A stretch of 64,000 nt of DNA from Bacillota bacterium (GTDB lineage: Bacteria > Bacillota > Negativicutes > Sporomusales > Sporomusaceae), in contig JAGGAB010000006.1 in the NCBI GenBank assembly GCA_017889705.1, positions 1 to 64,000 on the forward strand, written 5' to 3'. The translations under genes and the position numbers were made by a program. The notes below the pieces were generated by a model, which was given only the letters and a program-made list of their open reading frames with translations, was not told the DNA's origin and searched no databases. Shown piece after piece: positions 5,783 through 62,899 of the stretch (positions are counted from its first letter, which is position 1; each line of letters opens with the position of its first letter).

Positions 5783-7534
5783 TCAAGAAATATTTAACAT
5801 ATCGAGTTGCAGTGTCCACATTTGATAAAATAAACCGCGTGCTGCCAGTAATTGCTGGCAGGTTCCCTGTTCTGCGACTTTGCCATTTTCAAGCACGATG
5901 ATTTCATCCATAACTTCTAAGCCTGTTAGCCGGTGGGTTATCAAAAGCATCGACGAGCCAACCGCCGCCTGCAAAATATGGTTCATCACTACCTGCTCGG
6001 CTTCGGCGTCAAGTCCGGCAGTCGGCTCATCCAGAAGCCATACCGGCGCAGTCTTAAGCAATGCCCGTGCCAAGGCAATTCGCTGCCGCTCACCGCCAGA
6101 CAGCGCCAGTCCGTTTTGACCTGTCAGCGTGTTAAGTCCTTGTGGCAACTTGGCGAGAAAATCATTTAACCCGGCAGCCTCGACTGCAGCCATAAGTTCA
6201 GCAGGTGCAGCGTTCGGCTTAGCCACTAAAATATTATCCCTGATACTGGCATTGAACAAATAGGTATCCTGGCTTACCACGCTGATCAGCTTACGAACTT
6301 GCTCTGGCGCATACTGTCTGATATCCTTGCCGTTAAGCAACAGACGCCCCTGACTGCTATCCCAGAAACGCAAGATCAGTCCGGCAATTGTACTTTTACC
6401 TGCCCCGCTAGCGCCTACTACCGCCAGTTTCTTTCCAGGCGGCAGACAAAAGCTGATATCTGTTAAAACCTGCTCCTGACCCGGCAAATAGGAAAAAACC
6501 TGCTCCTGACCCGGCAAATAGGAAAATGACAGCTTATCAGCCGCCAACGTCAGCGGTTCCTTAGGAGCTATACCTTGAACCGCAACAGCAGACACCTTGC
6601 TGGCAATCTGCTTAAGCCGCGCCACGGCAGCGGCACTTTCCCGCAGATAGCTGACAACTGCCGTCAACGGCAAAACAGCCTCAAAACTCCCTTGCACCGC
6701 CAGCGCCACAACTGCCAAATACACCCCATTTAGCTGTCCGTCCGCAACCTGCCGGGCCGCCAGCCCAATTACAATCAGAACTGTAAAATTTAGCCCTAAA
6801 ACCCCAACAGTATCAGCCAACACTGTCATAGTGTTGGCTTTTTTCTGGCTGCTTTGCAGGCTGGCCGCCGCGATCAGCACTTTGTCCGCTTGGGTTTTTG
6901 CCTGACCAAATGCCGCTAATTCGGTAATTCCCTCAATACTGTCAGCTAGCAGCTCCTGAAAGCCTGCTCTTGCTGCTATAGCGGCACTGCCGGCTTTAGA
7001 TCCCAGATAATACATGCCAATCGGTACTATGCAGCCTGTCAACACAATAAGTCCCAATACCGGCCAAATCAGCCAGTCAGCAAGCCACGCTAGTAATATT
7101 ACTACCGTTGTAACCACTAATACAGCAATAAGCACCGGAAATACTGCACGCAAATAGAAAAACTGTAGTGTCTCGACATCGGCTACCAACCGGCTAAATA
7201 TGTCGCCTTTGGCAAAGGCGGTGAGTTCACGCATAGTTAGCTGCTCAACCCGGCTGTATAGCCATACTCTAAGATCAGCCAGCAACCGGAAAGTAACATT
7301 ATGGCTTACATAGCGTTCACCATAGCGGCAAATAGCCCGTGCCAAACCAAAAAACCGAACCCCGACAATAGCTACCGACAATTCACTGACCGGCGGATGC
7401 AAGGCAGCCGCAGAAATCAGCCAGGCAGAAGCCGCCAATAAACCGACATTGGCGCAAACCGTAAAAGCGCCAAGCATACAGGCAACCGCAGCCAACAAAA
7501 CAGTCATCCGGCTGCCGATCAACATGCTAAGCAT
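5783..7534 (-). CDS. cydC: Thiol reductant ABC exporter subunit CydC
   Basis: A 583-residue half-transporter: about six membrane helices in the first 300 residues, then an ABC ATPase with Walker A GASGAGKST, signature ALSGGERQRIALARALL, Walker B VWLLDEPTAGLD and the H-loop THRLTG. CydDC exports glutathione or cysteine to the periplasm and is needed to assemble cytochrome bd, which is encoded about 8 kb upstream. The start overlaps the end of cydD by 8 bp, so the two are translationally coupled. A perfect 30-bp tandem duplication (residues about 337-356) adds ten residues just before Walker A, where the ATP-stacking aromatic A-loop lies. The frame is kept. Confidence 0.9.
   Translation of the reverse strand: MLSMLIGSRMTVLLAAVACMLGAFTVCANVGLLAASAWLISAAALHPPVSELSVAIVGVRFFGLARAICRYGERYVSHNVTFRLLADLRVWLYSRVEQLTMRELTAFAKGDIFSRLVADVETLQFFYLRAVFPVLIAVLVVTTVVILLAWLADWLIWPVLGLIVLTGCIVPIGMYYLGSKAGSAAIAARAGFQELLADSIEGITELAAFGQAKTQADKVLIAAASLQSSQKKANTMTVLADTVGVLGLNFTVLIVIGLAARQVADGQLNGVYLAVVALAVQGSFEAVLPLTAVVSYLRESAAAVARLKQIASKVSAVAVQGIAPKEPLTLAADKLSFSYLPGQEQVFSYLPGQEQVLTDISFCLPPGKKLAVVGASGAGKSTIAGLILRFWDSSQGRLLLNGKDIRQYAPEQVRKLISVVSQDTYLFNASIRDNILVAKPNAAPAELMAAVEAAGLNDFLAKLPQGLNTLTGQNGLALSGGERQRIALARALLKTAPVWLLDEPTAGLDAEAEQVVMNHILQAAVGSSMLLITHRLTGLEVMDEIIVLENGKVAEQGTCQQLLAARGLFYQMWTLQLDMLNIS
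6467..6526. repeat. Perfect 30-bp tandem duplication inside cydC
   Basis: Two adjacent identical 30-bp units (6467-6496 and 6497-6526), each beginning AACCTGCTCC and ending TAGGAAAA. They duplicate FSYLPGQEQV in frame. Confidence 0.97.
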
Positions 7535-9278
7535 GAGCCACCCCTCCTGACTGGATAGCCATCAGCAGTTTGCTGTACATGCCCTTTTCCGCTAACAATT
7601 CAGCAGGTGTACCAACCTCAACAATTTTTCCGTCTTTTAATACAATGATTTTATCAGCCTGCCTGATGGTTGTCAGACGATGCGCAATGATTATGGCTGT
7701 CCGCCCGGCAAGCAGCCGAGCCAAGGCTTCATCCAGAACAGCCTGGTTTTTGACATCAAGCCCCCGCGCAACCTCATCCAAGATGATTAGCGGCGCATTT
7801 TGCAAAAAAGCCCTGGCAATGGCAATCCGCTGACGCTCACCGCCACTTAATTGATAACAGCTGCCCTCCCCAATTGGCGTGTCATAACCGTCTGGCAAAC
7901 GCATAATAAACTCATGCGCTCCGGCCGCTTTAGCGGCAGCCATGATTTCTGCCGGCAAAGCAGCTTGGCGCGCCAATTTGATATTGTCGGCCACCGTTCC
8001 CTGAAACAAATGCGGCCGTTGCGGCACAAAGGCCACCTGCGCCAGCCAATCACCGATGCGTAGTGTCTGCAAGGGTACACCGTTTACCAAAATATCGCCG
8101 GCAGACGGTGCCAAAAAATGCAACAGCAAAGAAGCCAGCGTACTTTTTCCCGCACCGCTGGGTCCCACCACCGCCAAGTGCTGACCAGTCTCCACGGCAA
8201 AAGATACTCCTTGCAAAGCCGGCCTCTCGCCTTGCTGGTAATCGGCATAGACATTCCGAAACTCGATAGCAATCTGCTCCTGCCGTCCAAGCAAAGCTGA
8301 TCCGCTATTTGCGTTCGGCCTTTGCAGTGCCAGCAAATCGCAAATACCGGCTGCTGCCGTTTTTCCCTCCATGCCGGCATGAAACTGACTGCCCAGCATT
8401 CGCAGCGGCTGATAAAACTCAGGTGCCAGCAATAGCACAAATAACGCCTGGTTAAAGGTAACCTCACCATATAACAGCCTTAACCCAACCGTTACTGCTA
8501 CCAGAGCAGTACTGATCGTAGCCAATAGTTCTAAGGCCAGCGCCGACAAAAATGCTACCTTAAGCACTTCCAGGGTTGCACTGCGAAACTTATTACTTAT
8601 CCGCCTGATAACTTCTGCCTGTTCGCGGCTCCGACCAAATATTTTCAGGGTTGTCAACCCTGATAACACATCTAAAAAATGCGCGCTTAATAAGGTAAGC
8701 GTCTCCCATTGCCGCTGGTTGCGTCTTTCAGCCATTTTGCCAATGAGCACCATGAACACCGGAATTAACGGTGCAGTCACAACCATAATAAATGCCGTGG
8801 TACTATCAAGCGGCCCTACAACCGTTAAAATAAATACCGGAATAATAGCGGCCTTGAGTAGCTGAGGCAAATATTTGGCAAAATAGCCCTCCAGTTTTTC
8901 TACGCCCTCGCCGATAATCGCAATGGTTTCACCGGCAGGCTGATAAGCCATTGCCACTGGCCCCAAATTCAATACATGCTCAATCAGCCGCTGCCGGAGA
9001 GAAGCTTTTACTTCTGCCGCCAGCGCGAAGGCCAATACGCCTTCGCCATACATAAAGATTGCTCTTGCCAGCACAATTCCCACCAGCAGCCATAAGGTCG
9101 GCCAAACATCATTAGGGTCCTGTTTGCCTAAAAATATCTTGTCAATGACCTGGGTAAGATAATAGGCCTGGGCAACAATCATCGCCCCGCCGCCAATCCC
9201 CGAGCAAGTAACAACCGCCAGTAAACCGCGCTGACGTTTAGCCTCTTTTGCTAACTCTTTATCAATCAGTAGTATCAC
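7527..9278 (-). CDS. cydD: Thiol reductant ABC exporter subunit CydD
   Basis: A 583-residue half-transporter partner of CydC. The membrane domain fills about residues 15-320. The ATPase follows with Walker A GPSGAGKST, signature QLSGGERQRIAIARAFL, Walker B LIILDEVARGLD and AHRLTTI. It is first in a two-gene operon. The start used is GTG at 9278 (MILLIDKELAKE), but its ribosome-binding site is poor because a dispersed repeat (9285-9415) begins only 7 bp upstream, so the start and the leader may have been altered by that element. Note the Walker B line has Glu-Val where many families have Glu-Pro. Confidence 0.9.
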   Translation of the reverse strand: MILLIDKELAKEAKRQRGLLAVVTCSGIGGGAMIVAQAYYLTQVIDKIFLGKQDPNDVWPTLWLLVGIVLARAIFMYGEGVLAFALAAEVKASLRQRLIEHVLNLGPVAMAYQPAGETIAIIGEGVEKLEGYFAKYLPQLLKAAIIPVFILTVVGPLDSTTAFIMVVTAPLIPVFMVLIGKMAERRNQRQWETLTLLSAHFLDVLSGLTTLKIFGRSREQAEVIRRISNKFRSATLEVLKVAFLSALALELLATISTALVAVTVGLRLLYGEVTFNQALFVLLLAPEFYQPLRMLGSQFHAGMEGKTAAAGICDLLALQRPNANSGSALLGRQEQIAIEFRNVYADYQQGERPALQGVSFAVETGQHLAVVGPSGAGKSTLASLLLHFLAPSAGDILVNGVPLQTLRIGDWLAQVAFVPQRPHLFQGTVADNIKLARQAALPAEIMAAAKAAGAHEFIMRLPDGYDTPIGEGSCYQLSGGERQRIAIARAFLQNAPLIILDEVARGLDVKNQAVLDEALARLLAGRTAIIIAHRLTTIRQADKIIVLKDGKIVEVGTPAELLAEKGMYSKLLMAIQSGGVAHA

Positions 9279-9611: not shown

Positions 9612-9809
9612 TTAATGCAACTGTTTCATGGGACCTGTTTCTTCAAGCTGGTCAATATCAACATGAACAGTATTGCGTTCTTCCAGATAGGTTACATGAG
9701 CCGTATTCCGGCCTTTATCCACATCTTCAATCCAGACATAATTATTTCGGTACTTAACCCCAATAACATCCGGCGACTTCATAATTTGTTCGGCTCGCGA
9801 TGCATTCAT
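9612..9809 (-). CDS. sspH: H-type small acid-soluble spore protein
   Basis: A 65-residue protein matching the SspH family: an N-terminal MNASRAEQIMKSPDVIGVKY block, a central YVWIEDVD, and a C-terminal NTVHVDIDQLEE strand. SspH-type proteins are minor spore-core proteins made in the forespore. The start is the ATG at 9809, with AAAGGAG 8 bp upstream; an upstream in-frame GTG would bury that site. It is a single-gene unit flanked by a repeat on one side and a GNAT gene on the other. Together with the SASP at 55.9 kb it shows that the organism makes endospores. Confidence 0.88.
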   Translation of the reverse strand: MNASRAEQIMKSPDVIGVKYRNNYVWIEDVDKGRNTAHVTYLEERNTVHVDIDQLEETGPMKQLH

Positions 9810-9893
9810 GAAAACCACTCCTTTTTACAAGTAGTATTTCACCTGACACCGCTAGATTATTCCGAGCCTGGAAAAAGCCTCCGTTCTGTCAAC

Positions 9894-10577: not shown

Positions 10578-11168
10578 TTAAAAAATTTTGTCAAAACCTG
10601 TAACTATTACCTTGCCGGCGGCATCAACGATGATTTCAGCGGTTTGCCCCTGGTAACCAGCAATATCAGGATGCCGTTTCAGTTTGTCAGATAAAAACAG
10701 CAATTGCTGATTCGCCGATGTTCTCAGATAGTCCTGTGCCGGCAAAGTCTTCTCATACGGCCCGGCAACCAGCAAATCAGTAACTGCCAGCAGCCGCTGC
10801 CAGTCCGAATTATTGCCAGCCGCAAGTTCATCAAAAGTATATCCTGTAAAAAGTACAACGGTTAATCCGCTGTCAGCCAGCTTTTCGGCCAGTTCAGCCA
10901 GGGATTTTGCCTGCTCAAACGGCTCACCGCCTGAAAATGTCACGCCCTCAATACCCTCAATAGCCAAAATACGCCCAGCCAGTTCCCGGACTGCAATTAA
11001 CTCTTTGTCCGCAAAATGACGCATCTCTTGGTTAAAACAACCGGGGCAGTTACGGTTACACCCCTGCACCCAGACCACCGCCCGCCGTCCGGGACCATTA
11101 CTGTGTGAAACCGGCAAAAAAGCTGCCATATTAAGCAGGCTGTCTTTTGGGGGTTCTGCCTTGCTCAT
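10578..11168 (-). CDS. Radical SAM protein, NrdG/activating-enzyme type
   Basis: A 196-residue short radical SAM protein. CNRNCPGC (Cys37, Cys41, Cys44) binds the 4Fe-4S cluster, and FSGGEPF is the SAM-binding GGEP motif. Length and layout match NrdG-like activating enzymes that make glycyl radicals, but no glycyl-radical enzyme lies beside it. It is the last gene of the six-gene operon; its ATG overlaps the stop of the DUF2997 gene by 4 bp (ATGA), so the two are translationally coupled. It may act on, or be gated by, the AAA+ ATPase and small proteins of the operon. The target is unknown. Confidence 0.82.
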   Translation of the reverse strand: MSKAEPPKDSLLNMAAFLPVSHSNGPGRRAVVWVQGCNRNCPGCFNQEMRHFADKELIAVRELAGRILAIEGIEGVTFSGGEPFEQAKSLAELAEKLADSGLTVVLFTGYTFDELAAGNNSDWQRLLAVTDLLVAGPYEKTLPAQDYLRTSANQQLLFLSDKLKRHPDIAGYQGQTAEIIVDAAGKVIVTGFDKIF

Positions 11169-11365
11169 CGCCGGTTATCTCGCACCTTGGCAACATCGGC
11201 CGGCTGTTCATAAAATTCCGGTGACATTTCCCGCACCTTGACCTGCCCTAAGGCTTCTTCAATGGGTTTCGTGATATCCAGACATTTGCCACCTTTGGCG
11301 CCGGCCACTTTGATACTGACCTGTCCAGTGGCATCAATAGTGATCTCGAGTTCTTCCTTCTCCAT
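11165..11365 (-). CDS. DUF2997 family small protein
   Basis: A 66-residue acidic protein matching DUF2997: a beta-hairpin start (ELEITIDATGQVSIKV), then GAKGGKCLDITKPIEEALG with an invariant-looking cysteine, then REMSPEFYEQ. The family is known from cyanobacteria, where it is found near Ycf35-type (DUF1257) genes; that statement is from memory. Function unknown. The start ATG is preceded by a G-rich ribosome-binding site. It sits between the AAA+ ATPase (20 bp) and the radical SAM gene (4-bp overlap), so a close functional tie to the radical SAM protein is likely. Confidence 0.82.
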   Translation of the reverse strand: MEKEELEITIDATGQVSIKVAGAKGGKCLDITKPIEEALGQVKVREMSPEFYEQPADVAKVRDNRR

Positions 11366-11384
11366 AATACCGCCCCCCCTTATG

Positions 11385-12929
11385 TTAGTCTGCATTGATC
11401 TCAAGCATCACCTGGCCTGAACCTGTTTCACCGGCAACCTCGCCGGGGTAAGAAGCCGACTGGGCACGGCCTTCCTGGAGCCACTGCCTGAGATACTGAA
11501 TATTTTCCCGCTGTGAAACCGATAATGGCACTTGGCGTTTTAGTGATATTACAATATCTTCAGTGGTAATTTCCCGCATCTGGTCACTAAACGCCAAATA
11601 CATAGCATCAATAACAGCCTGTTCAATTTCGGCACCTACATAGCCATCCGATTCTTTAACAAGGCGCTTAAGATCAAAATCCCGCGGATTGCGGTTACGT
11701 CGTTTAAGATGGGTGATAAAAATTTCGTGCCGTTCCAACATATGAGGCAAATCCAGAAAGAAGATTTCGTCAAACCGGCCTTTGCGCATAAGCTCAGGTG
11801 GCAACGCAGCAATGTTGTTGGCGGTGGCGACAACAAAACACGGCGCTTTTTTATCCTGCATCCAGGTCAGCAATGTGGCAAACACACGCTGACTGGTGCC
11901 GCCGTCACCGCCGCCAAAAGCAAACGCTTTTTCAATCTCATCCACCCATAAAATACAAGGAGCAATAGTCTCGGCAATATGCAGTGCTCGCCGACAGCGG
12001 TCCTCAGATTCACCAACATAGGAACCAAACAAAGCGCCAACATCAAGTCGCAGCAAAGGTAGTTGCCACAAGCTGCTGATCATTTTTGCCGTCAAACTTT
12101 TGCCGGTGCCGGGAATCCCCACCATAGCAATACCTTTAGGTGCCGGCAAGCCATAGTCGCGGGCATCTTTGGTAAAGGCCTGCTCCCTAAGCCGCAGCCA
12201 GTCTTTAAGCACACCCAAACCTCCGACACTTTCCGAGGTCTCGGTAGTACTTAAAAATTCAAGAGCTTCACTCTGCCGCACAAGCTGTGCCTTTTCTTCG
12301 GTAATCATGGCAATACTGCGATCATCCAGACAGCCGCAGGTAACAATCGCTTTGGAAAATACCCGGCGTGCCTGCCCGGCAGTCATGCCCATAGCGGCCT
12401 GCACTACCTTTTCGCGACCAGTTTCAGTCAAATTCATTTTGACATTGGCGCCTTTTAAGAGGCCATCCAGCACGCCATCAAGTTCTTCGCCATTAGGACG
12501 CCGCAGCTGAATCACCACAGCTTCGTCCTGCAGCTCATCAGGAATCTGGCCTGTAGGCGTGGTAATAACAATCGAGGTTCTGGTCTGGGTCAAGCGCTGG
12601 ACAACACTGCGCAGCTTGCGCCTGACCGGCGCATTGGTCCAAAAGTCATGGAAGTCCTTACAGACAAAAATATCCCCTTGATTGTCCATACCGGTCTTTT
12701 CCATAAGGTCAAGCGCAACTAACGGATCCCGGCACTTAAGATCAATGGCCGACTTGCCTGTCAACACCACAAAGGCATCAGCCACATCCCAGGATAAACA
12801 GGTGCGGTTTTTTTGCTCGCACACTGCTTTGACGTGTTCAATGGCACGTTCCTCTTCCGGAGTTACAATGACAATTAGCGTAACCCTCGCTCTGATATAG
12901 GTATCAAACTGTTCGGCAAAGTTATCCAT
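11385..12929 (-). CDS. Ycf46-like AAA+ ATPase
   Basis: A 514-residue protein. The first 230 residues match the Ycf46 layout ([23 protein letters not shown], later an inactive-looking P-loop-like domain with [15 protein letters not shown]). The C-terminal classical AAA+ domain has Walker A GIPGTGKS (271-278), Walker [11 protein letters not shown] (Asp330, Glu331) and an arginine-finger region at [10 protein letters not shown]. Ycf46 is conserved in cyanobacteria and plastids with no firmly known biochemical role. The ATG at 12929 follows GGGGGGAGGGG. The gene lies between DUF1257 and DUF2997 genes, the same partners seen in cyanobacteria. It is probably the motor of the operon. Confidence 0.85.
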
Positions 12930-12945
12930 GTTTTTCCCCTCCCCC

Positions 12946-13326
12946 CTATACCCACCGGCGTACAACCAAGCGGATTTCACCGTTGTCAGCTCGCTGCTGC
13001 TCCACCACATTAAACCCCTGTTGGCCGATCTTGTTCATAACTGTTGTTAACGCATACTGCTGCTGTACTTTTTGTGTAAACTGGTGTTCATTGGTTCCCT
13101 GAACACCAAACCAGTCGGCAATATAACTGTATGTGCCGTCAGGGCCCAGGACAAAACCAATATCATAACCTTGCTGCATTCTCACCGCAATATCAACCGT
13201 TGTCTCCTGTCCCCGATATCCTTTTATCGTCATATTCTCTTCTACATCATAGCCCAACTCCTTCAGGCAGGCCAACAGCATTTCCTTGTTGGTAATCTGG
13301 GTTGTTACCTGAGTAAAATGCGACAT
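12946..13326 (-). CDS. DUF1257 (Ycf35-type) protein
   Basis: A 126-residue protein of the DUF1257/Ycf35 family. It opens MSHFTQV and has the typical LLACLKELGYDVEEN block, a beta-rich middle (DIAVRMQQGYDIGFVLGPDGTYSYIADWFGV) and a C-terminal Q-rich helix followed by GEIRLVVRRWV. The function of the family is not known. I chose the ATG at 13326 because GAAGGGGG lies just upstream; a longer frame to 13347 would overlap the Hsp70 gene. Gaps are 13 bp to the Hsp70 gene and 16 bp to the AAA+ gene, so all are co-transcribed. Confidence 0.83.
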   Translation of the reverse strand: MSHFTQVTTQITNKEMLLACLKELGYDVEENMTIKGYRGQETTVDIAVRMQQGYDIGFVLGPDGTYSYIADWFGVQGTNEHQFTQKVQQQYALTTVMNKIGQQGFNVVEQQRADNGEIRLVVRRWV

Positions 13327-13339
13327 GCTTTTTCCCCCT

Positions 13340-14614
13340 TCATACAAGCTTGGCTATCGCTATATTCTCCACAATAATCACATCACTTTTTATATCATAA
13401 GCCGTTATTAGCAAATGCCCCGCGCCATCCAGAACTGCATTAATCCTAATCACAGGCTGCTGCGCAAACGACGGTTGCTCTAGAGTAAGCAATAACGGAT
13501 TATCTGCATTAATACATTGTTCTTGATTGCGATACACTAAAATTGCAAACTCCTGTTGGCCGTCATAACTGGCTTTAATAATTAGTTCACCAACAGGATC
13601 GTCACTGGGATAAAACAGCCCCTGCGGCACAAGCTCCCGGTAATGATAACCGTCTTTTCCCCAATAGCGTACAGTGTAACTGTGCTGTATACAGCCGCAG
13701 CCGGCAATACCGCCACTTAGCATGGCCGCGCCGCAGGCAGCGGCAGCCATAGGCTCGCGTTCATAGCAGGCAATACCGGTAAAACCGTCCTGGATAACAG
13801 CCAACAGATCAGAAGGGATCACCCAACCGGTTATAATAATGCCAGCTAGGCTGTCTGCCGGATATCCTTTCACGGTTGCGGTGCGCAGCACTTGCCTGAT
13901 GGTGTCTGTTAACGCCGCAGCCGGTTCTTCCGCTCCCAGCCAGGCTGCATTATAACTTATTACCCGGACATGACGGCTGCTGCCGCCTTCCCCGGCCTCA
14001 GGCCTGACCTGGACCACCGCTGTTTCCACATACCCAGCACTTATATCAAAAATAATAAAAAGGTCTTCCGGCTTTAGCTGCATACCGGCGCCCCACGCAG
14101 CCGCCCAGGGTTGTTCAATCAAATCCAGACGACAAAATCCTGCCTTCGCGGCTGTTCCTTCCAGCCAATGCCGGTACCGCCGCCATGCTAGATCTGAAGA
14201 ACAGACTGCCAGTGGCATGGCAAATGCCAGCATGGCTTCGCTGCCCAGGCCCAGCACCTGGCTGGACTTAGTAATAAAAGCAGCCAGATACTCTTTCGCC
14301 AGGTCTTGATTGGTTAAGAGACCGCTCTTTGTCAGCTGTTTTATCAACTTGCCTGTTACGACACCATATTGCAAATCATGAAACGTTTTTTCTGCGCAAT
14401 CGCTTTCCACTGCTTCAAGCCCAATTAACCAGGCTTGGGTTTCTTGGTCATAGGCAACCAGTGACGGCGCAGCAAATACTCGCTTGCCTGCACCGCCTGT
14501 CACTGGCCGCGTCACCCCTGGCAAATACAATGTTTCAGCCTGATGAGATGACTCTCGCCAATAAGCAGCTACCGTATATGTATTGCCAAAATCAATTGCT
14601 AGCCGCCCGGCCAT
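13340..14614 (-). CDS. Hsp70/DnaK-like actin-fold ATPase, divergent
   Basis: A 424-residue protein with an actin-like ATPase fold. The phosphate-1 loop is AIDFGNTYTVAAYW, the phosphate-2 loop the degenerate IIFDISAGYVETAVV, and the adenosine motif IIITGWVIPSDLL. About 100 C-terminal residues form a short beta-rich tail instead of a full DnaK substrate domain. It is therefore an Hsp70 relative with a reduced or altered client domain. The start is set at the ATG 14614 (MAGRLAID) 8 bp after GAGG; an ATG two codons earlier (14620) is equally readable. It lies second in the operon, after the WD40 gene. Confidence 0.78.
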   Translation of the reverse strand: MAGRLAIDFGNTYTVAAYWRESSHQAETLYLPGVTRPVTGGAGKRVFAAPSLVAYDQETQAWLIGLEAVESDCAEKTFHDLQYGVVTGKLIKQLTKSGLLTNQDLAKEYLAAFITKSSQVLGLGSEAMLAFAMPLAVCSSDLAWRRYRHWLEGTAAKAGFCRLDLIEQPWAAAWGAGMQLKPEDLFIIFDISAGYVETAVVQVRPEAGEGGSSRHVRVISYNAAWLGAEEPAAALTDTIRQVLRTATVKGYPADSLAGIIITGWVIPSDLLAVIQDGFTGIACYEREPMAAAACGAAMLSGGIAGCGCIQHSYTVRYWGKDGYHYRELVPQGLFYPSDDPVGELIIKASYDGQQEFAILVYRNQEQCINADNPLLLTLEQPSFAQQPVIRINAVLDGAGHLLITAYDIKSDVIIVENIAIAKLV

Positions 14615-14630
14615 CACCATCACCTCACAG

Positions 14631-16736
14631 TTACAACATAATATCATACCGGAATTTTGCCGTAAGCAAACTATGCAAAAAACAACTGGCCTGCCATGTC
14701 TCAGGTTCCAGTGCGGACGCAGCCTTCATGGCTGCCGCAAACTGCCAGTCCTCATGGCTTGCCAAGGCCAACGGCTTACTTAACCGGAGCTGCCTAAGAA
14801 CCACTCTCCCTGCGGGCGATTGTACAATTATCCTTGCACCGCTGTGGCTGACTGCCAACACCCTGCCGTCTTGCTGCATACTCCATAACAGTTTATTAGT
14901 AGCTGACTGCCACACTTTGATGGTGTTATCAGCAGCACTGCTTACCAGCAGCCGCCCATCACCGCTATATTTTAATCCCTGGACCTGATTACTGTGCGCC
15001 GCCCAAAGCTTATTGCCGCCGTCAGCACCTGTCAGTGCGTAGGTTCGAAGCCTGCCATCTCTTGCGCTGCCGGTGATAAGCCGCTGCCTGGGGTTAACTG
15101 CCGCTGCGCAAAAGAAACTGCCAGGATACTGCGCCTCAATATTCATGACCAAACCATCCCAGGACCAGACTTTGGCAGGTAAGAGTCCGCCGGCGCCGGC
15201 CAGCGCCAGCAGCTTGCCGGTCTCATCTGCCGCCAGTGCCGACACCTGCCCGCTCTGACCTTTTACGCTGCTGACCCATTTTACATCAGGCAGCTGCCAG
15301 ATATGAGTTTTTGCATCTTGACCGGCAGTTACCAGATAGCGGCCGTCAGAAGTAAAAGTCAGTGCCGTAATAGCTTCTGTATGCAGATTAACCGTCCGCC
15401 ATAATGTACCGTCAGTTGTCTGCCATAATCGCAACCGGCCATCGCTGCCGCCGCCGGCCACCAGCCATCCGTTAGGATGAAAAGCGGCGCAGACAATACT
15501 TACTGAAGTTTCTGGGCTTTCCAGCACAGCCAGCTGCCGCCCATCAGGTACAAACATAGACTGGCCGTCACGCGGACAAGTTGCGAGAATGTTTTTCCAG
15601 TCACCACGCTGCCAGAGCTTAGGAATCCAGGCTGCGCCGGTCAAAGTTAACACAATTTCGGCTGCCCAGTTTGCCGGCACAAGCAAGATTAACCGGTATA
15701 ATTCCTCCCAGCGTTCCTGACTTGCTAATGTATCCAGCATAACCGCCCAATCTTGGTCTGTTAGCTCCTCATATTCAGCCCGGCGACCTGCTTTTAGCAG
15801 CAACCCGGCCAACAACAAACTATGCCCGCTTTGCCGAGTCGCCGCCAAAAATTGCTGTCGCTCAGCTGCTGATGCCTGGCTGTAGCCTTTGGCCAGTAAC
15901 GGCCTTGTATCCTGCCAGTCGAGAGCATAGTACTTTTCCCACTGCCCGGTTATACAATAATACAGGGCAGCCTTATCATCAGCAGTTGGCGCATAATTAG
16001 CCACTACCACCCAGTTTCTCAGACGTTCCTGACCTTGGCTGAGTACGGTTTCACATAAGGCATCAATAGCCTGTTTGTCTGTTAAGGTCAACAGCAGCCG
16101 CCTGGCCCGGCCGGCGATTACCCGGTCAGCATCATCGACTGCCGCCAGCAGTGCAGAAGTAAGTTCTGCCCCTTCCGGCAGCATAACCCGGTCAGCCCCG
16201 GTCTTAAGGACTGTCAACAGGCGTAAACTAAGCGGTTTAGCAGCCAGATAACCGACCTCAACCAAAATTTGCTCCAGTTCCGGCCGGCGGCTCTCGGCCC
16301 AAAGACGGCATAATTCATCAATAGCGCTGCCATCAGTTAAACTGTTCAGTGCCCGCTGAGCCTCACCGGCAATTACCGCATCCTCACTAACTAAGGCCTC
16401 AAGCAATGGCGCAATGACTTCAGCCCCCATTCCTGCCGGAATAAACGACTTGCCGCCAGCCAGCGCCGCAACTACTTTCTTCCGTATTTCGTCAGCTACC
16501 GCCGCCTGTAGGGCAGCAGCTTCAGCAGTTTTCTCAGGTGATAATCCGCCCTCGGCTTCAAGCTGGAACTTGGCCATGATCGTACTTACAATTTCACGGA
16601 TATTCTGGCGTTCACCCACAGCTAACTGTTTCGCTATCAAAGTCTCTGCCAGTTGCATAATTTCCGCCACAAAATCAGAGGGATACACCCAAGCCAGCTG
16701 CCGCAAAAATTCTTTGTCCTCATCACCAAGTCCCAT
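14631..16736 (-). CDS. HEAT-like and WD40 repeat protein
   Basis: A 701-residue protein. Residues about 85-260 are helical HEAT-like repeats (for example VIAPLLEALVSEDAVIAGEAQRAL). Residues about 400-650 hold at least five WD40 blades: RLRLWQTTDG, KTHIWQLPD, KVWSWDG, RLRTYALTG and IKVWQSATN. Such proteins are scaffolds or sensors. It is first in the six-gene operon; AGGTGGTGAG precedes the ATG. Only 52 bp separate it from cydB upstream on the same strand with no terminator seen, so read-through from rrf2-cydAB is likely. Enzymatic activity is not expected. Confidence 0.8.
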   Translation of the reverse strand: MGLGDEDKEFLRQLAWVYPSDFVAEIMQLAETLIAKQLAVGERQNIREIVSTIMAKFQLEAEGGLSPEKTAEAAALQAAVADEIRKKVVAALAGGKSFIPAGMGAEVIAPLLEALVSEDAVIAGEAQRALNSLTDGSAIDELCRLWAESRRPELEQILVEVGYLAAKPLSLRLLTVLKTGADRVMLPEGAELTSALLAAVDDADRVIAGRARRLLLTLTDKQAIDALCETVLSQGQERLRNWVVVANYAPTADDKAALYYCITGQWEKYYALDWQDTRPLLAKGYSQASAAERQQFLAATRQSGHSLLLAGLLLKAGRRAEYEELTDQDWAVMLDTLASQERWEELYRLILLVPANWAAEIVLTLTGAAWIPKLWQRGDWKNILATCPRDGQSMFVPDGRQLAVLESPETSVSIVCAAFHPNGWLVAGGGSDGRLRLWQTTDGTLWRTVNLHTEAITALTFTSDGRYLVTAGQDAKTHIWQLPDVKWVSSVKGQSGQVSALAADETGKLLALAGAGGLLPAKVWSWDGLVMNIEAQYPGSFFCAAAVNPRQRLITGSARDGRLRTYALTGADGGNKLWAAHSNQVQGLKYSGDGRLLVSSAADNTIKVWQSATNKLLWSMQQDGRVLAVSHSGARIIVQSPAGRVVLRQLRLSKPLALASHEDWQFAAAMKAASALEPETWQASCFLHSLLTAKFRYDIML

Positions 16737-16788: not shown

Positions 16789-17793
16789 TTAATACTCCAA
16801 ATCTTTGGCAGTTACCCGTTTGCGGAATATCCAGTATACCCAGCCTTGATACACTAACACAACCGGTACCAACGCCAAGGCGGCAATCGTCATAATTGAC
16901 AGCGTATAGGGAGTAGAAGCGGCATTGGCAATCGTCAGGCTCCAGGCCGGATTAAGACTGGAAACCATAAGCCGGGGAAACAATCCCCAGAAAAAGGCAA
17001 TTGTCGTAAACGCCACTGTGAGGCTGCTTAAAATAAAGCCTGCACCATACCGCTCACTGTATACCGCACCATAAGCTCCGACAAACAAGGCAACCGCTCC
17101 CCATAGCGCAACTCCGGCACCGGTACTGGCAAATAAATCAGTATTGATATAAGTCAGGCCAACAAGAGTTAGGCAGAATATCGCTGTTAATATCCCGGTT
17201 CTTACGGCAACTGCACGCGCCCGTTTCACCATTTCACCCTCGGTTTTAAGCGTGAGATATAAGGCTCCATGAAAAATAAACACCAGCAGAAAGGCAACCC
17301 CACCGACCAGAGTATAGGGGCTGAGCAAATCAAAGAATGTGCCAACATATTGCATCTTAGCATTAATGGGCACTCCTTGGATTAAATTGGTTACAGCCAC
17401 ACCCCAAAGTACTGCCGGGATTACACTGCCAATAAAGATCAGCCAATCCCAGGTATTGCGCCAAGTCGGATTTTCATCCTTGCTCCTAAACTCAAAAGCA
17501 ACACCCCGGCCAATGAGCGCCATCAGCATCAAAAACAACGCCAGATAAAATCCACTGAACAGCGTGGCATACACATGAGGAAAAGCAGCAAACATTGCGC
17601 CGCCGGCGGTAATCATCCAAACCTCATTACCATCCCAAACCGGCCCAATTGTATTAATAATTATCCGGCGTTCGGTATCGTTTTTCCCCAAGAAAGGCAG
17701 TAAAATTCCTACCCCATAATCAAACCCTTCGAGGAAAAAGAAGCCAATAAACAGGACTGTCAACAAAATAAACCACAATACACTTAGTTCCAT
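16789..17793 (-). CDS. cydB: Cytochrome bd quinol oxidase subunit II
   Basis: A 334-residue multi-span membrane protein matching CydB: the N-terminal FFLEGFDYGVGILLPF, then PVWDGNEVWMITAGGAMFAAFP, and eight or so hydrophobic helices. It pairs with CydA to reduce O2 to water with electrons from quinol, a high-affinity oxygen-scavenging oxidase used by many anaerobes. Its start overlaps the end of cydA by 10 bp. It ends 52 bp before the WD40 gene of the following operon. Confidence 0.96.
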   Translation of the reverse strand: MELSVLWFILLTVLFIGFFFLEGFDYGVGILLPFLGKNDTERRIIINTIGPVWDGNEVWMITAGGAMFAAFPHVYATLFSGFYLALFLMLMALIGRGVAFEFRSKDENPTWRNTWDWLIFIGSVIPAVLWGVAVTNLIQGVPINAKMQYVGTFFDLLSPYTLVGGVAFLLVFIFHGALYLTLKTEGEMVKRARAVAVRTGILTAIFCLTLVGLTYINTDLFASTGAGVALWGAVALFVGAYGAVYSERYGAGFILSSLTVAFTTIAFFWGLFPRLMVSSLNPAWSLTIANAASTPYTLSIMTIAALALVPVVLVYQGWVYWIFRKRVTAKDLEY

Positions 17794-19175
17794 AATGTCG
17801 CCCCCTTTGCTGCCGGTTTACTCATTTGCGCTTGCGCCGGTGTTTCTACAGGTCCCTGCCGGACAAACTTCTGCACAAGATAAATTGCCGCAGCCGCCAG
17901 CACTGCATATACCAACGTAAAGCCAATCAGCGAAATCCAGATACTAATCGTTCCCACAGACGGCGACACAGCCTGCTCCACCTTTTGCAAACCAAATACA
18001 ATCCACGGCTGACGCCCGCCTTCAGCAACAAACCAACCCGTGGAATTTGCAATATAGGGAAGTGGCAAACTCCATAACACAGCCTTAAGCAGCCATGGTT
18101 TTGTTTCCAACTGGCCGCGCCACCAGAAAAAGCCTGTGGCCGCAACCACCAACAGCATAACGCTGCCGGCAGCTACCATAATACGAAAGCTCCAAAACAC
18201 CGGCGTTACCGCCGGCACATAATTTCCCGGTCCGTAAACAGCTATATACTCTTTCTCAATATCCTTAATTCCCCTGATGGGTGTATTAGGGTTGTTATTC
18301 GCTAATATCGACAACATGGCCGGGATTTTTATTTCCATCGAATTAGTTTTATTCTGTTCATCAATAATGGCAGCTACCGCAAAAGGTGCCGGATTTGCCG
18401 TCTCCCATAGGGCCTCTGCCGCCGCCAGTTTCATAGGCTGCGCCTTGGCAATAAACTGTGTCTGCGCATGGCCACTTCCCATCAGCAAAAACAGGCTCAC
18501 TGCTGTCCAGATTATCCCCAGCTTGAATGAAGCTCGGAAAAACTCAACATGGGTTTTGCCGATAAGATGGTATGCGCTAATCGCCAGCACGAAAAAACCC
18601 GCCGTTACCAGGCCTGACAACACCGTGTGAGGGAATTGGTAAAATACATATGGATTCGTAATCAGCGCGACAAAATCGGTCATTTCGGCCCGGCCATTAT
18701 TAATAACATACCCCACCGGGGACTGCATAAAAGAATTGGCCGTCAGAATCCAAAAGGCCGACAAATTAGTTGCCAACGCCACAATCCACATACTGGCCGC
18801 ATGCATTCTTTTAGACAGGCGATCCCAGCCAAAAATCCACAGTCCCAAAAATACCGATTCCAGATAAAAAGCCGTAAGCGCTTCCATAGCCAACGGCGCA
18901 CCGAAAATATCCCCCATAAAACGGGCATATTCCGACCAGTTCATACCAAAATGAAACTCCTGAACAATACCTGTGACCACACCCATAGCAAAGTTAATGA
19001 GAAATAGTTTCCCCCAAAATTTCGTCTGCTCCTTATACATTTCATTACCGGTGCGGACATAGATAGTTTCCAGAATGGCTACAATCAGCGACAACCCTAA
19101 TGTTAAAGGAACAAACAAAAAATGATAGATTGTTGTTATCCCGAATTGCCACCGGGATAAAAGTAATTCTTCCAT
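17784..19175 (-). CDS. cydA: Cytochrome bd quinol oxidase subunit I
   Basis: A 463-residue membrane subunit carrying the haems. Visible marks are the N-terminal SRWQFGITTIYHFLFVPLTLG with the haem-ligand histidine, the GMNWSEYARFMGDIFGAPLAMEAL segment, FQFPHTVLSG-type helices around the second histidine, and the quinol-loop and WFVAEGGRQPW region. Its length fits the short-Q-loop form. An Rrf2-type regulator lies only 4 bp upstream and they share a promoter at 19670-19698. It protects an otherwise anaerobic cell from oxygen; cydDC for its assembly lies at 5.8-9.3 kb. Confidence 0.96.
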   Translation of the reverse strand: MEELLLSRWQFGITTIYHFLFVPLTLGLSLIVAILETIYVRTGNEMYKEQTKFWGKLFLINFAMGVVTGIVQEFHFGMNWSEYARFMGDIFGAPLAMEALTAFYLESVFLGLWIFGWDRLSKRMHAASMWIVALATNLSAFWILTANSFMQSPVGYVINNGRAEMTDFVALITNPYVFYQFPHTVLSGLVTAGFFVLAISAYHLIGKTHVEFFRASFKLGIIWTAVSLFLLMGSGHAQTQFIAKAQPMKLAAAEALWETANPAPFAVAAIIDEQNKTNSMEIKIPAMLSILANNNPNTPIRGIKDIEKEYIAVYGPGNYVPAVTPVFWSFRIMVAAGSVMLLVVAATGFFWWRGQLETKPWLLKAVLWSLPLPYIANSTGWFVAEGGRQPWIVFGLQKVEQAVSPSVGTISIWISLIGFTLVYAVLAAAAIYLVQKFVRQGPVETPAQAQMSKPAAKGATLWN

Positions 19176-62581: not shown

Positions 62582-62672
62582 TGGCGGAGTGGCAGGGATT
62601 TGAACCCTGGCAGGCCTCACGACCTCTAACGATTTAGCAAACCGTCCTCTTCAGCCACTTGAGTACCACTCC
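62582..62672 (-). tRNA. tRNA-Ser (anticodon GCU)
   Basis: A 91-nt class-II tRNA including an encoded CCA. The acceptor GGAGTGG pairs with CCACTCC, and the anticodon stem ACGGT/ATCGT frames loop TTGCTAA, giving GCT. There is a long variable arm, and the T-loop is GGTTCAAATCC. Confidence 0.95.
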
Positions 62673-62810
62673 GTGTCAATAAATTGTTTAGATTATACCA
62701 AATGCCCTACCGTAAGTCAATTATAGAGATGTTCCTCACTACCGCTCGGAACTAAGCAACTCACACAGGTTCTCATTTTGCTTATCGCTCGTAAGAACTT
62801 GGTTCGCTTA

Positions 62811-62899
62811 TGGCGGAGGGGGTGGGATTCGAACCCACGGTCCCTTTCAGGATCACTGGTTTTCAAGACCAGCTCCATAAACCGCTCGGACACCCCTCC
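62811..62899 (-). tRNA. tRNA-Ser (anticodon UGA)
   Basis: An 89-nt class-II tRNA with encoded CCA. The acceptor GGAGGGG pairs with CCCCTCC, the anticodon stem CTGGT/ACCAG frames CTTGAAA (TGA), there is a long variable arm, and the T-loop is GGTTCGAATCC. It lies upstream of tRNA-Ser(GCU) in one unit, 138 bp apart. Confidence 0.95.

Follow-up and report, generated by a model that had tools for sequence, protein, structure and literature searches.

Six genes in the genome of an anaerobic bacterium of the Sporomusaceae (Bacillota) very probably work together as one system, described here from a stretch of 64,000 nucleotides (positions 1 to 64,000 of contig JAGGAB010000006.1, assembly GCA_017889705.1; hereafter the window). 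In order of transcription, they encode a WD40 protein, an Hsp70-like protein, a DUF1257 protein of the Ycf35 family, a Ycf46-like AAA+ ATPase, a DUF2997 protein and a radical SAM protein. The same genes stand together in Bacillota, in methanogenic archaea of the phylum of Methanoregula, in Actinomadura, in Nanoarchaeia and in a genome of the phylum Cyanobacteriota. This agrees with a first-pass annotation of this DNA, which had taken the six genes for one system and had named conserved synteny across distant phyla as what would support this. The system has as its core a quartet of AAA+, DUF1257, DUF2997 and radical SAM proteins; in some cells this is extended by a scaffold of the HEAT or WD40 type and an Hsp70-like protein, the latter at times accompanied by GrpE. 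We regard it as a likely chaperone and iron-sulfur stress machine. The genes and motifs, with lengths in amino acids (aa) and evidence from open reading frames (ORFs), Pfam and an AlphaFold2 model, are the following:

14631..16736, minus strand: WD40 beta-propeller scaffold protein, 701 aa, gene 1 of six (ORF; Pfam WD40 repeats, PF00400, 1.8e-21)
13340..14614, minus strand: Hsp70-like protein with degenerate nucleotide-binding part and SBD-beta-like tail (beta part of the substrate-binding domain, in our reading); longest ORF from 14647 (MreB-like Pfam match; loss of motifs and a segment)
12946..13326, minus strand: DUF1257 (Ycf35 family), 126 aa from the conserved start MSHF (Pfam PF06868, E 4.7e-29, 101 bits against a cut-off of 22.2, positions 1-103 of 103; model with a predicted local distance difference test score, pLDDT, of 81.8)
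11385..12929, minus strand: Ycf46-like AAA+ ATPase, 514 aa from MDNF (Pfam AAA, 1.5e-28)
12096..12119, minus strand: Walker A motif GIPGTGKS of the AAA+ protein (from an alignment, with the position calculated from residue numbering)
11165..11365, minus strand: DUF2997, 66 aa, with a single cysteine, Cys28 (Pfam PF11211, E 2.1e-17, 63.2 bits against a cut-off of 24.1)
11282..11284, minus strand: codon of the invariant DUF2997 cysteine (position derived)
10578..11168, minus strand: radical SAM protein resembling the activases of NrdG and pyruvate formate-lyase type, 196 aa, with an ATGA overlap with DUF2997 (Pfam Fer4_12, 1.9e-31)
11037..11060, minus strand: CxxxCxxC [4Fe-4S] motif (C37, C41, C44) of the radical SAM protein (invariant alignment columns; position derived)

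The six genes fill positions 10578-16736 of the minus strand and are tightly packed in the ORF map. With the gene starts set to those common to relatives (MSHF, MDNF, MEKEELEI), the gaps are 16, 13, 16 and 19 bp, followed by the 4-bp overlap of the DUF2997 and radical SAM genes, and purine-rich stretches resembling ribosome-binding sites lie upstream of gene starts. The co-directional, closely spaced arrangement reported by the first-pass annotation was confirmed in this way. The genome of the window has a size of 5.0 Mb and is Sporomusa-like, its AAA+ protein being 96% identical to that of Sporomusa sp. KB1.

Within the family, all six genes follow cydA in the same order in 9/9 fetched relatives. 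DUF1257 was detected in 10 of 60 searched genomes, our own included, and all ten belong to this family; the genomes of the two family members without a match are 58% and 72% complete. Identities to six compared relatives are 86-96% for the AAA+ protein, 70-89% for DUF2997, 71-84% for DUF1257, 58-65% for the radical SAM protein, 46-65% for the WD40 protein and 36-54% for the Hsp70-like protein. The operon consists of a slow-evolving engine and faster-evolving outer parts, and its most conserved member, the AAA+ protein, still shows about 60% identity to archaeal loci.

Loci from other groups were mapped with hidden Markov models (HMMs). The counts lean towards the system because these HMMs were built from the window and the fetched loci; gene calls are simple longest ORFs, and some loci end at contig ends. 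Phylum names of the genome samples are presumed from the named genome at the centre of each sample, and we take the phylum of Methanoregula to be Halobacteriota. A survey anchored on DUF1257 matched 4/398 genomes of Bacillota (our own included), 13/344 of the Methanoregula phylum, 40/79 of Cyanobacteriota, 10/288 of Verrucomicrobiota and 24/247 of Desulfobacterota. The 344 genomes of the Methanoregula phylum divide into 13 with both DUF1257 and DUF2997, one with DUF2997 alone (a weak match) and 330 with neither. All 12 newly fetched archaeal loci have the order radical SAM-DUF1257-AAA-WD40-Hsp70-DUF2997, one of them (L222) being cut by a contig end, with the DUF2997 gene of that genome 1.9 kb into another contig. 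An alignment of the AAA+ protein was also used to scan a collection of species genomes, and the best 80 of at least 571 loci were mapped. DUF1257 is present in 20 of these best 80, among which complete sets occur in Methanolinea (L035) and Methanoregula (L039), in the archaeal order just given, and in a metagenome-assembled genome (MAG) of Nanoarchaeia (L044). Another complete set comes from Actinomadura (L040), where the WD40-type gene was recognised by clustering, with weak Pfam matches and a laxer search, and the Cyanobacteriota-phylum genome (L279) carries all six genes and GrpE on one strand. Because of these counts of co-conservation, the organisation as an operon is more than chance.

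Partial sets were found in two further phyla. Of the 24 matching Desulfobacterota genomes, 20 contributed a single locus each, the other four having matches only on contigs below 6 kb. Within 8 kb and on the strand of DUF1257, these loci contain DUF2997 in 20 cases, AAA in 19, Hsp70 in 14 and WD40 in none. Eleven loci represent nine of the ten Verrucomicrobiota genomes (L041 belongs to the remaining one); all 11 have DUF2997 in the vicinity and 8 have AAA, and no radical SAM, Hsp70, WD40, GrpE or formylglycine-generating-enzyme-like (FGE) gene was found on the same strand as DUF1257. In L268, one of these loci, a radical SAM gene is encoded on the opposite strand. In several other loci the radical SAM slot beside AAA-DUF1257-DUF2997 is filled by a second radical SAM family. 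Some neighbours recur. In seven Desulfobacterota loci (within L239-L250), a protein of 61-71 aa with a Cys-Gly C-terminus (7/7) lies between Hsp70 and AAA; in eight (within L239-L250), a small membrane-type protein follows DUF2997; and five have a further gene downstream, the shown member of which contains CxxCH and looks like a cytochrome c. A gene of the FGE-sulfatase type recurs near AAA or Hsp70 (L084, L103, L038, L044, L235, L238) and two Chlorobiaceae genomes that gave no DUF1257 match have it as well; one member was tested with Pfam.

Phages and plasmids delimit the core. Among 85 viral loci anchored on AAA, 31 carry DUF1257, DUF2997 or both, and 14 hold the whole quartet without a recognised Hsp70 or WD40 gene. 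The quartet, again without these two, is also located on large plasmids of Bacillus licheniformis and Paenibacillus, which look phage-like to us. Marine cyanophage-type contigs contain the DUF2997-DUF1257 pair in 77/80 cases and DUF1257 alone in 3/80. Furthermore, two Bacillota genomes (L023, L024) encode an identical protein of 222 aa in which DUF1257 and DUF2997 are fused in one ORF, which supports, indirectly and for this one pair, a link between the two. Based on the phage and plasmid subsets and the fusion, the smallest unit observed is DUF2997-DUF1257, to which the AAA+ protein, an iron-sulfur protein and a chaperone layer are added in turn. Scattered genes had been named by the first-pass annotation as contrary evidence. 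Across phyla the genes are kept together, but the six are not indivisible: phage contigs carry the quartet without Hsp70 and WD40, and cyanobacteria mostly have a ferredoxin in place of the radical SAM protein.

Several details of these mobile loci may be added. The phage contigs with all four core genes (among L394-L473) are up to 244 kb long, and those with AAA and both DUFs up to 341 kb. A neighbour gene of the Verrucomicrobiota type belongs to DUF3150 (Pfam), and four phage loci have a gene of similar appearance close by. The two genes of the pair overlap in cyanophage-type contigs (L284-L363; L033:7802-8381). In P-SSM2, the pair precedes the DNA polymerase gene by about 570 bp, with two small genes in between, and is annotated as 'hypothetical'. 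The DUF1257 protein of the window, used as a query against viral contigs, gave no match, and no literature linking ycf35 with cyanophage was found. On the Treponema plasmid pTRESU01, DUF1257 lies among contractile tail genes (L031:8218-8625) and a radical SAM-AAA pair between VgrG and baseplate genes (L032:8366-10521), and a Treponema MAG (L065) has the order radical SAM-AAA-baseplate-like gene-DUF2997. The two genomes with the identical fusion (G385, G267) are from different families, which suggests a mobile element.

In cyanobacteria two layouts were distinguished. The first was studied in the 30 best-scoring of 83 Cyanobacteriota matches with loci, Moorena's included, and all 30 show DUF2997-DUF1257(Ycf35)-ferredoxin Fed7. 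For the second, 21 of 31 type-2-like matches were tested, and in 21/21 a Ycf46-like AAA gene directly precedes a second DUF1257 gene; 20 of these have a small protein, ribbon-helix-helix-like in our reading of its sequence, ahead of AAA-DUF1257 and one has AAA-DUF1257 alone. L232 and L233 show the same order. Statements on the literature refer here and below to the accessible parts of the cited papers. The first layout is known as cluster g of Synechocystis (PMC4284462); it resembles the operon in that DUF2997 lies beside DUF1257 with an iron-sulfur protein, and differs by a ferredoxin for the radical SAM protein, with AAA+, Hsp70 and WD40 outside the cluster as described there. Fed7 binds the DnaJ-like protein Sll1384 in a two-hybrid assay, and a fed7 mutant copes less well with iron limitation and with oxidative, metal and salt stress (PMC4284462). 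The genes ssl1263, fed7 and ycf35 are jointly SigD-dependent (PMC8875361). The second layout resembles, by analogy of gene order, the three-gene operon slr0373-slr0374-slr0376, which responds to iron deficiency and oxidative stress (PMC7496141) and contains the AAA+ gene slr0374, i.e. Ycf46 (PMC7496141, PMC7283877); slr0376, presumably a DUF1257 paralogue, is mainly monocistronic (PMC7283877). In contrast to the operon of the window, no DUF2997, radical SAM or Hsp70 gene is described for it in the accessible text. In plastids, J proteins with a bacterial-type ferredoxin domain act with HSP70B (PMC9407819), and in the plastids of red algae the presence of four genes, ycf35 and ycf46 among them, tracks habitat (PMC5940233). 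The operon is in keeping with the published cyanobacterial and plastid reports: both indicate that DUF1257/DUF2997, Hsp70, the AAA+ protein and an iron-sulfur protein belong together. The system may retain an iron-sulfur function and exchange the protein that provides it (radical SAM, second radical SAM family or ferredoxin).

The AAA+ protein has the features of a classical, Ycf46-like ATPase. Besides the AAA domain it contains AAA_lid_3 (8.1e-11), and the Walker A motif, Walker B (ILWVDE) and RKGRFD are all intact, in agreement with the first-pass annotation, which had noticed intact Walker A and Walker B motifs and an intact arginine finger. Many cyanobacterial proteins match it over nearly the full length with 42-46% identity, and the best match of its AAA domain in the PDB is the region of the second AAA domain of Cdc48. 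DUF1257 begins with MSH (in a few cases VSH or ISH) in 155/172 sequences. No fold is claimed for it, since the best PDB match of the model reaches only E 0.03; further weak matches look to us like helix-grip folds, and two matches below 0.001 in BFVD are both nameless. A sequence search of the PDB gave nothing significant for DUF1257 or DUF2997.

The conserved cysteine of DUF2997 mentioned by the first-pass annotation proved to be invariant: Cys28, the sole cysteine of the window protein, is present together with Gly14 in 145/145 distinct sequences, including the window copy. Gly25, which forms a GxxC motif with it, occurs in all 88 copies that do not belong to the viral set, plasmid-borne ones included, and is replaced by Ser, Arg or Asp in 27/57 viral copies; the class linked to radical SAM in this comparison comprised HMM matches, L279, the window and seven hand-listed loci. 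Because of these replacements, only Cys28 is beyond doubt, and Gly25 was rejected as a glycyl-radical site. The radical SAM protein also matches the Pfam family Radical_SAM (5.8e-8) and has a GGEP-type SAM motif and the predicted CxxxCxxC intact. It is similar to NrdG (TIGR02491; E 2.3e-25, 89.3 bits, below the curated cut-off of 126.1) and to the pyruvate formate-lyase activating enzyme (1.6e-18). The genes of DUF2997 and the radical SAM protein share the ATGA overlap in the window, in 9/9 fetched relatives and in the Nanoarchaeia locus, and also overlap in Actinomadura and L279. A partnership of the two proteins is plausible from this arrangement.

The two outer proteins are less uniform. 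The only Pfam match of the Hsp70-like protein is MreB_Mbl (3.5e-6, 26.5 bits against a cut-off of 27), and Pfam HSP70 is not matched by it, while the Methanoregula homologue (L039) matches HSP70 with 9.7e-17; several cyanobacterial, plasmid and other copies look intact in a crude motif test. The first-pass annotation had described a HEAT-like/WD40 scaffold. Its WD40 part stands, whereas HEAT was not among the listed Pfam families of the window protein (25/40 listed); HEAT_2 is matched weakly by the Actinomadura homologue (0.015) and, with 2.3e-7, by one member of a protein family that occupies the corresponding slot before Hsp70 in seven Desulfobacterota loci.

Pairwise distances of the six families were compared for 24 fetched loci and the window, 23 of which contain all six genes (L041 and L238 are without WD40); L013, L016, L017, L034 (probably the same genome as L011) and L222 (cut by a contig end) were left out. 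Over the 23 loci, the distances correlate with 0.66-0.91. Among nine distant representatives, pairs of DUF1257, AAA, DUF2997 and radical SAM stay at 0.68-0.79, and WD40 pairs with this core reach 0.37-0.67. These values fit a co-inherited core with a looser chaperone layer.

With regard to function, we tentatively read the operon, with slightly less than even confidence, as a redox- or radical-coupled client-remodelling machine in which DUF2997 serves as a cysteine-bearing substrate or adaptor. This takes up the proposal of client remodelling or metalloenzyme maturation made from the gene content, and it builds on the co-conservation, the gene fusion, the intact motifs of the AAA+ and radical SAM proteins and the invariant cysteine. 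The scaffold and the Hsp70-like protein would hold the client, the DUF1257-DUF2997 pair would dock it on the AAA+ ring, and the ring would unfold or remodel it with ATP. DUF2997 would be the object of the iron-sulfur chemistry: the iron-sulfur protein would act on or through its invariant cysteine, by radical modification in anaerobes and by electron transfer in cyanobacteria, and this step would couple the machine to redox, oxygen or iron status. We infer that the clients presented by the Hsp70 and WD40/HEAT proteins are redox or metal proteins, the likely job being their repair or maturation under stress. A bolder version is a long shot. Here DUF2997 would be a miniature radical- or thiyl-bearing protein whose GxxC is armed by the activase-like radical SAM protein in anaerobes, Fed7 doing a redox job in cyanobacteria; the armed DUF2997-DUF1257 would form a consumable head which the Ycf46-type AAA+ ring, with Hsp70 and the scaffold, pushes onto damaged metalloproteins. 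The plastid Ycf35 and Ycf46 would then be what is left of such a radical-coupled repair machine, and large phages would use the four-gene core to keep host proteins working.

Several results weigh against the view of a single remodelling machine. No radical SAM gene is near DUF1257 in any of eight hand-picked cyanobacterial loci (from the 83 matches), and such a gene lies within 8 kb on the DUF1257 strand in only 2/20 Desulfobacterota loci. Members of either radical SAM family are missing from the vicinity in most of the loci from Desulfobacterota and Verrucomicrobiota (ferredoxins were not searched there), which speaks against a kept iron-sulfur function. DUF1257 is absent from 60 of the best 80 AAA-anchored cellular loci within the locus sequence examined, some of it short; 54/85 viral loci have AAA alone, with no other system gene in the sequence examined, and the cyanophage-type contigs show no AAA or other system gene in theirs. 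In the 12 archaeal loci, DUF2997 and radical SAM lie at opposite ends, DUF2997 being the farthest gene, and the earlier idea of DUF2997 as a substrate or adaptor of the radical SAM protein is therefore favoured by the overlap and the invariant cysteine but not by this arrangement. The DUF2997 structure model was too poor for a fold search, and the DUF1257 model had no PDB match at E 0.001 (the best is Bcs1). The distance correlations partly reflect shared clades, and shared ancestry alone can yield such values, for which no null was run; Hsp70 pairs drop to a rho of -0.04 to 0.48 in the nine distant representatives. Moreover, of the features of an active DnaK-type ATPase (phosphate-1, phosphate-2 and adenosine motifs, complete second lobe), the window protein keeps the phosphate-1 motif; it has lost the phosphate-2 and adenosine motifs and 60-68 residues found in distant copies. 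The same residues are missing in 5/6 compared relatives (L018 keeps them), and Hsp70 is degenerate in many other copies by the crude motif test. The Hsp70-like protein of the window is thus probably no active ATPase, and the two ATPases of the first-pass annotation are doubtful, with only the AAA+ protein clearly intact.

Other explanations share part of this evidence. The radical SAM protein and DUF2997 could form the heart of the operon, DUF2997 being a permanently modified small substrate (a radical, a cross-link or a cofactor-like residue) which the AAA+, Hsp70 and scaffold proteins only fold, present or recycle, with no general client. The overlapping genes, the single invariant cysteine and the resemblance to activases suit this idea, which we nevertheless consider unlikely, as cyanobacterial, cyanophage-type and most Desulfobacterota loci have a DUF2997 with the same cysteine and no radical SAM gene in the sequence examined, and the two genes are not adjacent in archaea. 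Somewhat less probable still is a role in conflict or defence, or as a means by which phages counter such a system, with AAA+, Hsp70, WD40/HEAT and FGE-type genes recalling NTP-dependent conflict systems. These are reported to include chaperones, one radical SAM variant, FGS domains and beta-propellers, and chaperone-based forms are described (PMC7159879); the quartet in phage contigs and phage-like plasmids is in line with them, as are the RloB gene of one plasmid locus and the FGE-sulfatase genes that some loci contain. Such systems are, in the accessible text, built on MoxR-vWA or GTPases (PMC7159879), neither of which was matched in the operon: the AAA+ protein is Cdc48-like and no vWA match exists among the six genes. 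Pfam also gave no nuclease or toxin domain for them, PADLOC matched only generic AAA (IetA, TRIP13) and radical SAM (viperin) similarity, and the locus occupies one shared chromosomal place in the nine relatives.

The flanks of the operon gave rise to a further explanation:

16789..19175, minus strand: cydA and cydB (cytochrome bd), 52 bp upstream of the WD40 gene (cydA by PF01654; cyd names assumed by us)
5783..9278, minus strand: two ABC transporter genes downstream of the operon, present in some relatives (ORF map), which we take to be cydD/cydC

Lying between cydAB and the putative cydDC, the six genes might encode maturation or assembly factors for cytochrome bd, as the place behind cydA in all fetched relatives would suggest. 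We hold this to be very improbable, and it was rejected as the main role: 45 of the 60 searched genomes (our own included) have cydA and only 10 of these have DUF1257, one of the 35 without it (G002) being 58% complete, and no cydA or cydB match was found in the fetched loci outside Sporomusaceae. The comparison with and without cydAB that had been recommended earlier hence revealed a linkage in Sporomusaceae only. The neighbourhood suggests use of the machine under oxygen exposure in this family, not cytochrome bd assembly. A simple scan found no terminator-like site in the gap between cydB and the WD40 gene; the scan for promoter- and terminator-like sites, used for this gap alone, showed only a modest excess over shuffled sequence. 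It is even harder to believe that the radical SAM protein is just the activase of an anaerobic ribonucleotide reductase with unrelated neighbours. It is NrdG-like by sequence and shares with NrdG and pyruvate formate-lyase activating enzymes the format of a minimal radical SAM protein with GPGxR and QGC...C..C motifs, yet it scores below the NrdG cut-off, there is no glycyl radical enzyme gene among the six, and its neighbours are conserved with it across phyla. The NrdD of this genome is encoded on another contig, directly followed by an NrdG-like gene of its own, and a role as NrdG for the resident NrdD was rejected on account of this pair.

The remodelling machine proposed here has relatives among known systems. 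Its AAA domain links it to Cdc48/p97 segregases, which work with WD40/armadillo adaptors; in contrast to these, no ubiquitin gene is among the six. We assume the WD40 scaffold to be analogous to the PLAA/Ufd3 adaptors. We know of no protein-remodelling system that joins a Cdc48-type AAA+ ring, an Hsp70-like protein and a radical SAM enzyme; if the proposal is true, such a machine would be of a new kind. The plastid J proteins CDJ3-5 and the DJC76 clade (PMC9407819; also PMC4284462) resemble it by a Fed7-like domain tied to Hsp70 work and differ as fused J proteins, with which the accessible text of PMC9407819 does not mention DUF1257 or AAA+. DUF1257 or DUF2997 is named in PMC4284462, PMC13131479 and PMC12016546, and mentions of Ycf35/Ycf46 come mostly from plastid genome reports. 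No published description of the six-gene combination was found in the accessible literature, subscription papers being outside its scope, in accordance with the first-pass annotation, which knew of none. The genes ycf35 and ycf46 of plastid genomes have no agreed role; relatives of both are now placed in one system, common to bacteria, archaea and large phages, which predicts DUF2997, an iron-sulfur protein and Hsp70 as partners of Ycf35/Ycf46.

Two features of the remaining window deserve mention. Between the radical SAM gene and the ABC transporter genes lie a GNAT gene and a gene for the small acid-soluble spore protein SspH (Pfam), the latter at 9612-9818 between GNAT and the transporter genes, and the organism is therefore probably a spore former. 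Two adjacent tRNA-Ser genes (gct, tga) are located at 62582-62899, near the end of the window.

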